From: Pleurocapsa sp. PCC 7319
Lineage (GTDB): Bacteria; Cyanobacteriota; Cyanobacteriia; Cyanobacteriales; Xenococcaceae
Assembly: GCF_000332195.1 (NCBI RefSeq)
Contig: NZ_KB235922.1
Coordinates: 6,297,322-6,361,321, forward strand
Reading direction: 5' to 3'
Length of the DNA: 64,000 bases
Shown one piece after another: positions 42,924 through 45,774 of the stretch; within the stretch, counting starts at the first letter, position 1; each line of letters opens with the position of its first letter. The notes beneath the pieces were generated by a model that saw only the letters and a program-made list of their open reading frames with translations, ran no database searches and had not been told where the DNA came from. The position numbers were made by a program, and so were the translations under genes.

Positions 42924-44315
42924 ATGGCTTTAATCATTGCGGGCGATCGCTCTGGAGTAGGCAAAACAACTATCACCCTTGCCATACTTGCCTACCTCTC
43001 GAAGCAAAGTAATAAAGTACAGTCATTCAAAGTAGGACCGGATTATATCGATCCGATGTTCCATGGGGCAGTGACAGATAGACCCTGTCGTAATTTAGAT
43101 CCAGTTTTAACTTCTGCCAGTTATGTTCAATCTTGTTTTCGGTATCATGCTCAATATGCTGACTGGGTAGTAGTAGAAGGAGTGATGGGACTATTTGACG
43201 GTATTCGTAATCTAAATGTCGATGACCAACAATCTTTGAATGACTATGGTAGTACTGCCCACATTGCCAGATTATTAGACTTACCTGTAGCCTTGGTTTT
43301 AGACTGTTCTAGCTTGTCTAGCTCCATCGCCGCGATCGCTTTTGGTTATGCCAACCTCGATCCTCAAGTCAAAATCGCTGGCGTAATTTTGAATAAAGTA
43401 GCCAGCGATCGCCATTTAGAATTATTAGAAACAGCATTAAATACAATTGGGATGCCTATATTGGGAGTTTTAAAACGTAATGCTACAGTAACTATTCCCG
43501 ATCGCCACTTAGGATTGATTCCCTCAGCAGAACTGACTCAGATTAATAGTATTTTTCAGCAACTAGCCCATCTGGCAAAAATATCATTTAACTGGGACAA
43601 ACTCTTCCCCCTTCTTCGGCATTCTCAATCCCCAGTCCCCAATCCCCAAGTCCCTAATTCCCAAGTCTCCAATCCTCAGTCTCCAATTAGAATTGCGATC
43701 GCTCAAGATTTAGCTTTCAATTTCTACTATCAAGATAATTTCGATATTCTGGAAAAACATGGGGCTGAATTAGTTTTTTGGAGTCCGCTTACAGCTCAGA
43801 ATATTCCTAAAGATATTCAGGGATTATATTTCGGTGGTGGTTTCCCCGAGATTTTTGCCGAACAACTCGCAGTAAATAAATCGGTACGGCAACAGCTCAA
43901 GCAACTAATTCAAACTGGCATCCCTACCTATGCCGAATGCGGTGGTCTAATGTATTTATGTAAACAGCTAACGGATCTTGAGCAAAAAACTTGGTCAATG
44001 GTGGGGGTGATTCCTAGCACTGTCACTATGCAAACTAAATTAACCTTGGGTTATAGACAGGCTGAGGCTCTCCAAGATAGTCCACTTATTCAAGCCCGGC
44101 AAACTGTCAGGGGACACGAATTTCACCGCTCCCAACTCACTGCCCTTCCCTCCACTCCACAGTGGCAATTACAGGGTTTTCATCAATTTAGTTCTCCATT
44201 AACAGAGGGATGGCGAATCGCCAAATTACACGCTTCTTATTTACATCTTCATTGGGGAGCATCGCAATTTTTAGCCCAAAGATTTATCCGACATTGCCGA
44301 AATTATCAAATTTAG
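42924..44315 (+). CDS. cobB: Cobyrinic acid a,c-diamide synthase
   Basis: CobB/CbiA amidates the a and c side chains of cobyrinic acid (or hydrogenobyrinic acid), using ATP and glutamine, in cobalamin synthesis. From ATG 42924 it has 463 residues (a further ATG 13 codons upstream gives an N-terminal extension MFKLFAFLNQKFY without a better ribosome site). The N-terminal ATP domain begins GDRSGVGKTTITLAIL, with KVGPDYIDPMFHG and VEGVMGLFDG. The C-terminal type I amidotransferase-like domain has LYFGGGFPEIFAEQLA and AECGGLMYL (nucleophile Cys). The interdomain linker (residues about 235-256) is built of a tandem heptamer repeat, at 43629-43687. Confidence 0.93.
   Translation: MALIIAGDRSGVGKTTITLAILAYLSKQSNKVQSFKVGPDYIDPMFHGAVTDRPCRNLDPVLTSASYVQSCFRYHAQYADWVVVEGVMGLFDGIRNLNVDDQQSLNDYGSTAHIARLLDLPVALVLDCSSLSSSIAAIAFGYANLDPQVKIAGVILNKVASDRHLELLETALNTIGMPILGVLKRNATVTIPDRHLGLIPSAELTQINSIFQQLAHLAKISFNWDKLFPLLRHSQSPVPNPQVPNSQVSNPQSPIRIAIAQDLAFNFYYQDNFDILEKHGAELVFWSPLTAQNIPKDIQGLYFGGGFPEIFAEQLAVNKSVRQQLKQLIQTGIPTYAECGGLMYLCKQLTDLEQKTWSMVGVIPSTVTMQTKLTLGYRQAEALQDSPLIQARQTVRGHEFHRSQLTALPSTPQWQLQGFHQFSSPLTEGWRIAKLHASYLHLHWGASQFLAQRFIRHCRNYQI
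43629..43687 (+). repeat. Tandem heptamer repeat inside the cobB coding sequence
   Basis: About eight degenerate seven-base units of the CCCCAGT / CCCCAAT / CCCAAGT type run in frame through the linker of CobB and encode SPVPNPQVPNSQVSNPQSPI. The same unit type is a familiar intergenic heptamer (STRR) in cyanobacteria. It adds about 20 proline- and asparagine-rich residues between the ATPase and amidotransferase domains. Confidence 0.75.
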
Positions 44316-44377
44316 CTATATTAACTTCAGATAGAAAATTATTAAATAACCATTTAGGGATATAGGAGGTGATGCCC

Positions 44378-44449
44378 ATGACAGAACACAGTACTATGAT
44401 GGGTCTCCTAGTTGATGATAGCCAGCTGTGTGCTGGGGCTGTTCTCTAA
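44378..44449 (+). CDS. 23-codon leader-like ORF within the structured element
   Basis: The ORF reads MTEHSTMMGLLVDDSQLCAG with a final AVL and TAA stop. It is preceded at 44364-44373 by AGGAGGTGAT, an essentially complete match to the 3' end of 16S rRNA and much stronger than the sites of the real genes around it; the spacing to ATG is short (about 5 bases). Ribosomes on this ORF would cross the 5' strand of the outer stem (44401-44414) and the first hairpins, so translation could remodel the RNA. It contains a single Cys codon and no run of any amino acid, so a classical cysteine attenuator is not evident. It is too short to identify by homology. Confidence 0.35.
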   Translation: MTEHSTMMGLLVDDSQLCAGAVL

Positions 44450-44540
44450 ACAGTCATCTCAAATCTTCTTCGGAAGTAGCTAGGTAGACATTGTTGGAGT
44501 TCCTTCCAGCAGTTAGGTTTCAACTTAGAGACCCTCTAGA

Positions 44541-44616
44541 CCGCCCCCATGAGTAATAGCTACAGCAACAATAGCCGTTGTTGGATGCTGTCTACTCGTG
44601 GGGGCGGATAGTTTTT
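44541..44616 (+). terminator. Long hairpin terminator of the structured element
   Basis: CCGCCCCCATGAGTA (44541-44555) pairs with TACTCGTGGGGGCGG (44593-44607), 15 bp with one G-U. Inside, ACAGC/GCTGT and AACAA/TTGTT extend the hairpin. ATAG and five T residues follow. The stem ends about 146 bases before cysK. Confidence 0.75.
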
Positions 44617-44761
44617 AGACCAAAACAGACAAGATTGCTCTTTCCTTAAACTCTACAAACGGAATTAAAGCTGAGAAATATAAACTATTGAAAATATAGA
44701 TAGATAGAGTAGTTAATAAACAAGCAAAATTAAAGAACTAGTTATTAACCTGTTGTATCTT

Positions 44762-45715
44762 ATGAAAATTGCCAAAAACGTTACGGAACTGGTCGGAAAG
44801 ACTCCCCTTGTGGAGCTTAATCGTATCCCCCAACAAGAAGGATGTGTTGCTCAAATAGTTGTCAAACTAGAAGGAATGAACCCAGCTGCATCAGTAAAAG
44901 ATCGTATTGGGGTCAATATGATTAATGCTGCTGAAGCGGCAGGTACAATTACACCTGGCAAAACGCTCCTCGTTGAGCCAACATCAGGAAACACAGGAAT
45001 TGCTTTAGCAATGGCAGCAGCAGCAAAAGGTTATAAGTTGATTTTAACCATGCCTGAAACTATGAGTAAAGAACGGCGGGCAATGTTAAAAGCTTATGGC
45101 GCTCAATTAGAACTAACTCCTGGTAGCGAAGGGATGGGAGGCTGCATCAGAAAAGCTCAGGAAATAACTGAGAATATTCCTAATGCCTATATGTTGCAAC
45201 AATTTAATAATCCTGCCAATCCCGAAGTCCATAAAAGTACTACTGCTGAAGAAATTTGGGCAGATACAGAAGGTAAGGTAGATATGATTGTGGCAGGAGT
45301 TGGTACCGGAGGAACCATTACAGGGACGGCTGAAGTCTTAAAAAGATATAAACCAGAATTAAAAGCGATCGCCGTTGAGCCAACAGGTAGCCCAGTACTT
45401 TCAGGGGGAACACCAGGATCGCACAAAATTCAAGGAATTGGAGCAGGTTTTATCCCAGAAGTATTAAAGGTAGATTTGATTGACGAGGTTGTTACTGTGA
45501 CTGACGAGGAAGCGATCGATTTTGGTCGCCGTTTAGCTCGCGAAGAAGGTCTGTTGTCCGGTATTTCTACTGGCGCTGCCCTAGCAGCAGCAATAAAGCT
45601 GGCAAAAAAGGCAGAAAATAAAGACAAGCTAATTGTCATGATTCAGCCTAGCTTTGGTGAGCGCTATCTGAGCACACCTTTGTTCGCTGATTTAGAACAG
45701 CCTGTATTTAATTGA
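44762..45715 (+). CDS. cysK: Cysteine synthase A
   Basis: O-acetylserine (thiol)-lyase, forming cysteine from O-acetylserine and sulfide. From the ATG at 44762 ([20 protein letters not shown]) it has 317 residues. The PLP lysine is in [14 protein letters not shown] (about residue 43), the phosphate-binding loop is [15 protein letters not shown], and [19 protein letters not shown] is the substrate loop. It ends DLEQPVFN, a normal C-terminus. The 146-base leader after the upstream terminator stem contains an AT-rich stretch suitable for its own promoter. A TTG three codons earlier is the other start candidate. Confidence 0.95.
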
Positions 45716-45774
45716 GCTATTAATTCTTAGCTATTAGTTATTAGTTATTAGTTATTAGCTATTAACTCTTAGCT
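45716..45774 (+). repeat. TTAGTTA-type heptamer tract after cysK
   Basis: Seven-base units of the GTTATTA/GCTATTA kind (CTATTAGTTATTAGTTATTA and further) run for about 55 bases directly after the cysK stop. The same units are at 24117, 33171 and 62411. Confidence 0.65.

Follow-up and report, generated by a model that had tools for sequence, protein, structure and literature searches.

Positions 44364-44616 of the window, by which we mean the whole 64,000-nucleotide stretch of Pleurocapsa sp. PCC 7319 DNA that was analysed, very probably constitute a conserved structured RNA gene with its own tiny ORF and terminator. Genome comparison indicates that this RNA occurs in most of the cyanobacteria examined and is ancient, yet it has no Rfam entry and no function for it was found in the literature searched. 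The explanation we favour, and to which we give an even chance, is that the locus is a small-RNA gene of cyanobacteria, ancient and autonomous, that works as a translation-gated riboregulator. We infer the gated function; what the comparison of relatives supports is a promoter-like element, a Shine-Dalgarno (SD) sequence, an in-frame ORF, a covarying rod and a terminator. The covarying overlap of ORF and rod yields a direct prediction, that translation opens the rod, and the pterin dehydratase gene PCD, which lies directly behind the RNA in many genomes, is a first lead toward a physiological role. The original prediction was of a translated leader or regulatory small RNA that might regulate cysK; what we found supports a small RNA that is translated, has a terminator and has an outer stem sensitive to ribosomes, and gives no support to regulation of cysK as the general role.

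Table 1. Features of the RNA locus, in window coordinates.
Feature	Position	Strand	Basis or detail
Candidate -10 promoter element TATATT (likely)	44317..44322	+	Sequence; immediately after the cobB stop codon
Very strong SD sequence AGGAGGTGAT	44364..44373	+	GGAGGTG invariant among 79 aligned relatives
23-codon ORF, MTEHSTMMGLLVDDSQLCAGAVL then stop	44378..44449	+	ATG 44378-44380, TAA 44447-44449
Rod 5' arm, ORF codons 8-23	44401..44446	+	Covariation, helices 1-5
Rod 3' (distal) arm	44497..44534	+	Partner of 44401-44446; 29 rod pairs, both-sided changes in 17
Competing local hairpin within the ORF, CCAGC / GCTGG	44422..44436	+	98.0% of cells paired
Intrinsic terminator, CTA-GA-CCGCCCCCAT ... 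GTGGGGGCGG-A-TAG then T5	44536..44616	+	Helix 6 covariation

The elements of the locus (Table 1) follow one another in the order AGGAGGTGAT, ATG, 22 codons, TAA, a variable hairpin, the distal arm, the terminator and five T residues. A check against the sequence confirmed the predicted positions of the ORF, the outer stem and the terminator, and the SD site does stand ahead of a 23-codon ORF that runs into the outer stem. We take AGGAGGTGAT to be complementary to the 3' end of 16S rRNA. It is common in the genome (15 sites, compared with 12 for a reversed control), and what is notable about it is its conservation ahead of the ORF rather than its rarity. Judging from the candidate -10 element, transcription likely starts at about 44329, and the RNA between cobB and cysK is most likely transcribed on its own, with a length of about 285-290 nt.

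A 256-base core of the RNA, present in one full copy in its own genome, was used to query related genomes and matched 96 of 100, its own included, at E 0.1 or better; one of the 96 matches, that in G068, covers 21 bases and may be chance. The region was analysed from 95 related genomes, 87 of them with a recognisable terminator, and 79 of those 87 were aligned (alignment A1), leaving out L052, whose terminator is doubtful, and L070, L076, L083, L088, L091, L092 and L094, which are near-duplicates of rows that were kept. With a threshold of E 0.01, a covariance model built from 33 relatives has matches in 180 of 214 class genomes, and 7 of these matches, all in family f41, are weak (E 0.0005-0.004); among the 20 genomes listed of the 34 that the model misses, 14 fall in families f41 and f39. 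It had been suggested at the outset that such a model be built and compensatory base changes sought, and the comparison gave both the homologues in these 180 genomes and stems that covary. An exact pattern found at least 117 named stretches, and all 80 shown among the matches listed carry cyanobacterial names. We considered a mobile element unlikely, given one genomic copy and no match in plasmid or phage collections. Among the matches listed there is one full-length model match per genome except in G467, which has two (contigs C112 and C329).

Covariation supports the structure beyond what chance would give. An RNAalifold consensus consists of a rod, with codons 8-23 as its 5' arm and a distal stretch as its 3' arm, and then the terminator. 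Across the 79-row alignment the 43 pairs of rod and terminator are paired in 97.8% of cells, compared with 90.9% in shuffles and at most 49.3% when partner columns are slid, a comparison that favours the counted structure because it was derived from the same alignment. Changes on both sides occur in 25 of the 43 pairs (14.9 in shuffles), with 285 both-changed cells (91.9 in shuffles), and kinship among the sequences inflates this shuffle test; the both-sided changes in 25 pairs are stronger evidence than the paired-cell percentages. The terminator (helix 6) accounts for 14 pairs, 8 of them with both-sided changes, and is paired in 97.1% of cells. What had been described as a terminator-like stem followed by T residues is thus confirmed as a covarying intrinsic terminator, with 44541-44550 paired to 44598-44607 and T5 at 44612-44616. 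Likewise, the long-range stem 44401-44414 with 44521-44534, 12 of whose 14 positions pair, is the base of the longer covarying rod. Since codons 8-23 form one arm of that rod, translation and the rod exclude each other, which supports the earlier suggestion that ribosomes on the ORF would break the outer stem. The local hairpin within the ORF also excludes the rod; it has 17 both-changed cells (3.9 in shuffles) and 2 pairs with both-sided change, the same as in shuffles. A helix that would sequester the SD, CCCAT/ATGGG, is paired in 96.7% of cells with zero both-sided changes. Another local hairpin, 254-258 with 273-277, was rejected because its support is no better than in shuffles.

Folding of the RNA as it stands in the window agrees that this strand is structured: its minimum energy is -108.3 kcal/mol against a mean of -83.3 (sd 5.0) for 200 dinucleotide shuffles (z -5.0), none of which is as low, compared with z -2.7 and 1 of 200 as low for the opposite strand. 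The original prediction was of five hairpins enclosed by the outer stem. The hairpins are present in the window's minimum-energy fold, but their enclosure is by another 7-bp helix; the outer stem, which competes with two of the five, is absent from this fold, where its 5' arm is paired to the SD. Forcing the rod in the window costs 4.9 kcal/mol (-102.3, compared with -107.2 for the local hairpins), which makes the rod a less likely resting state there, and mean rod pair probability is 0.02 in the window compared with a median of 0.63 over the 79 sequences. Relative to the best fold without pairing between ORF and distal arm, the forced rod is lower by a median of 2.6 kcal/mol (-2.6); it is the lower-energy fold in 54 of the 79 sequences and not in the other 25.

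The ORF is very probably translated, to judge from how closely its geometry is kept. Its length is 23 codons in 178 of 195 distinct loci, 24 in 14 and 17 in 2, so that 192 have 23 or 24 codons; in one of the 195, L039, it is shifted by one base. Stop codons are TAA in 113, TAG in 80 and TGA in 2, the latter being L158 (named Acaryochloris) and L180. Between the ATG and the rod, 179 of these loci have a distance of 20 and 12 a distance of 23; L096 and L097, at 24, both still have a 23-codon ORF, and values are lacking for the frame-shifted L039 and for L088. In the named loci, at least 117, found with a pattern that permitted 3-9 bases ahead of TGGG, this spacing is 6 in 114 and 9 in 3. Of 203 distinct ORFs, 199 have no stop within the first 22 codons in frame 0; the corresponding numbers for frames 1 and 2 are 41 and 1. 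All 20 deep loci, those with weak or distant model matches, have an ORF of 16-26 codons behind a GGAGGTG-like site, in a search that itself required this kind of site, allowing 2 mismatches at most.

Conservation of frame, start and length would also be expected of an ordinary small mRNA that encodes a functional micropeptide and in which the rod and hairpins merely tune translation or stability, an alternative that we regard as doubtful overall but that several observations favour. Codons 2-7, which stand outside the rod, keep their amino acids beyond shuffles (similarity 1.99, compared with 1.75 in column shuffles, 0 of 200), as do codons 8-23 (2.87 compared with 2.77, 0 of 200), both for 173 distinct 23-codon ORFs and in tests that kinship inflates. 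In L260, Ser-Ser-Lys is kept as AGT TCT AAA in place of AGT AGT AAA. Residues 17 and 19-23 are near-constant, with L at residue 17 in 79 of 79 sequences, A, G and A at 19-21 in 78, 73 and 77, and V and L at 22-23 in 70 and 78. The rod arm, however, contains most of the C-terminal codons, whose conservation is in large part explained by RNA pairing alone. Moreover, codon 18 varies (Cys 54, Arg 18, Trp 5, Ser 2 of 79), and in six loci (L104, L153, L257, L259, L264 and L265) the ORF stops already after codon 16 or 17 while the remainder of the RNA fits the model, suggesting that the C-terminus of the peptide is not needed there. Translation of the first two thirds of the ORF looks more constant than the C-terminus. 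Finally, the conserved distal arm is more than an mRNA requires.

The second alternative we considered, and think unlikely, is that the RNA is a leader controlling the downstream gene in cis by transcription attenuation, that gene being PCD ancestrally and cysK in the window. PCD is downstream in at least 107 of 238 distinct loci, co-oriented with the RNA in all 107, and psbD and cobB are upstream in at least 105 and at least 38; these counts are lower bounds because many flanks are short. The copy in L023 was identified as PCD by PF01329. The PCD ATG stands 10 nt after the T-run in L110 and 16 nt after it in L040, which implies transcription through the terminator unless there is a promoter inside the RNA, and in L061, where the T-run is lost, PCD follows directly after the hairpin. 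Three relatives (L019, L024 and L025) have the order RNA-PCD-cysK, so the RNA-cysK order of the window may reflect loss of PCD, and the link to cysK looks historical. Two genes of the PCD family are found at other places in the window's genome.

Against a general attenuation leader, the genes downstream differ, including PCD, a porin, cysK, a DnaJ-like gene and others; among the 196 loci with at least 1500 bases downstream, PCD is found in 96, an SLH/OprB porin in 109 and cysK in 17, and regulation of cysK, which the original prediction had raised as a possible role, is as a general role unsupported. The first ORF of at least 90 aa after the RNA has the opposite orientation in 22 of 178 loci, a count from mechanically called ORFs, a few perhaps spurious, after 25 further loci were dropped for a short flank. 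The RNA is thus not tied, as a leader, to any single downstream gene. The cysK ATG of the window comes 145 bases after the T-run, which leaves room for cysK to have its own promoter. Nor did we find a covarying antiterminator in a scan of the dense alignment columns for runs of 4 or more, so regulated read-through would be without a visible switch. Against the 5' arm, the longest run in that scan spans 5 columns (96-100 with 290-294) and has 1 both-changed cell. Two longer G-U rich runs, of 10 columns (96-105 with 372-381) and 7 columns (100-106 with 367-373), touch the 3' side of the terminator and have 1 and 0 both-changed cells, respectively.

Several flanking features deserve mention in their own right. 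In L044, PCD is separated from the RNA by an apparent transposase ORF of ~370 aa, about 400-1515 bases downstream of the SD, and the usual terminator is unrecognisable there. In L031 and L048, another short hairpin with a T-rich tail replaces the standard terminator, ahead of cysK. Directly after cysK in the window, TTAGTTAT-like units are repeated across an AT-rich tract at 45716-45770. Contigs often end 250-640 bases ahead of the RNA. An upstream rRNA operon, suspected from these ends, was rejected after no Rfam match was found in 20 loci, and the repeat at the contig ends is perhaps psbD.

To the last alternative, that the sRNA is non-coding and its ORF incidental, we give almost no credence: the strong structure and the conservation of AGTAGTA at the nucleotide level in a stretch outside the rod would suit it, but not the ATG-to-rod distance of 20 or 23 in nearly all distinct loci, nor the preference for frame 0 over the other two frames.

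We therefore return to the translation-gated riboregulator. That the RNA gene is autonomous is suggested by the opposite-strand neighbours together with a promoter-like motif: of 202 upstream regions, 105 carry the extended -10 motif TGNTANNNT at 30-75 nt ahead of the SD, compared with 10 and 7 of 202 in two control windows. Its positions scatter among relatives, and the -10 site of the window lacks the TG; TATAAT with one mismatch is mildly enriched upstream (85, compared with 55 and 44 in the control windows). We propose that ribosomes load on the strong SD, traverse the ORF and strip the 5' arm from the rod, which would free the distal 3' arm, and that the rod would close when ribosomes are absent. 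Competition from local hairpins of similar computed stability could make this a two-state switch. The output would be a freed or hidden distal arm, the peptide, or both, acting in trans. If termination is incomplete, the same RNA could also be the 5' leader of the next gene, and the best reading of the gene order is that in many genomes it is also the leader of PCD. Going further, we speculate, with low confidence, that this near-universal cyanobacterial RNA senses the translation state of the cell, ribosome traffic alone opening the helix and so switching the distal arm and the PCD leader. If so, the ORF would be selected at once as a peptide, as a ribosome track and as a helix strand.

Among known RNA families, Rfam (release 15) has none that reaches its gathering score over the RNA, and 20 relatives likewise gave no match at the RNA. 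The interval 44300-44770 has four matches below threshold (E 0.048-9.3). One of these, at 44671-44707, is to the CRISPR repeat family RF01360 (23.6 bits, gathering score 39, E 0.048) and is probably chance in AT-rich DNA. 6S RNA is rod-like, and the RNA described here is similar to it in length and in its rod-like shape. We nonetheless rejected this identity, since the genome's sole match to RF00013 is a separate locus; RF00013 was found in 40 of 40 related genomes searched.

The original prediction that the RNA matches no known family therefore holds for Rfam, but the RNA has very likely been reported already, as ncl0160, a predicted cyanobacterial sRNA (Brenes-Alvarez et al., 2016; PMC4734099). 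The passages on ncl0160 in that paper give a putative peptide of 23-25 aa with a ribosome-binding site, 83 homologues in 89 genomes, stop codons TAA in 47, TAG in 34 and TGA in 2, and also GTG starts among the homologues. Our RNA has an ORF of this length behind such a site (24-26 or 16-17 codons in some deep lineages), a spread across most cyanobacteria (180 of 214 genomes of the class, 7 of them weak) and stops that are chiefly TAA or TAG and seldom TGA. It is this agreement with the published description, rather than an alignment, that makes the identity very likely. Those passages describe no function, mechanism, link to PCD or covariation between ORF and distal arm. Within the literature collection searched, no other paper names ncl0160; our wider literature searches, mostly judged from listings, found no further report of the RNA, and peptide strings matched nothing.

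With ribosome-mediated attenuators, our RNA shares a leader ORF followed by an intrinsic terminator, but neither a conserved antiterminator that competes with the terminator nor a conserved, regulated downstream gene was found. The Sinorhizobium attenuator RNA reportedly combines a short translated ORF, alternative pairings and a terminator; in our RNA we found no tryptophan-like run of codons, fixed downstream operon or antiterminator. The Sinorhizobium leader peptide peTrpL is described as acting in trans (PMC7298713). The possible read-through into PCD fits the concept of the Synechocystis actuaton, a discrete sRNA that by read-through also becomes the 5' part of a downstream gene without its own start site (Kopf et al., 2015; PMC5386190). 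In L110 and L040 PCD begins directly after the T-run, where read-through of this kind might occur; the window does not have this arrangement, and the passages on the actuaton describe no conserved ORF inside the sRNA. Lastly, SgrS/SgrT and SR1/SR1P are described as dual-function sRNAs, in which an independent RNA encodes a peptide (PMC5126843). In SgrS, according to the same source, the ORF in the 5' region and the base-pairing domain in the 3' region are separate, whereas in our RNA the ORF is itself one strand of the conserved rod.
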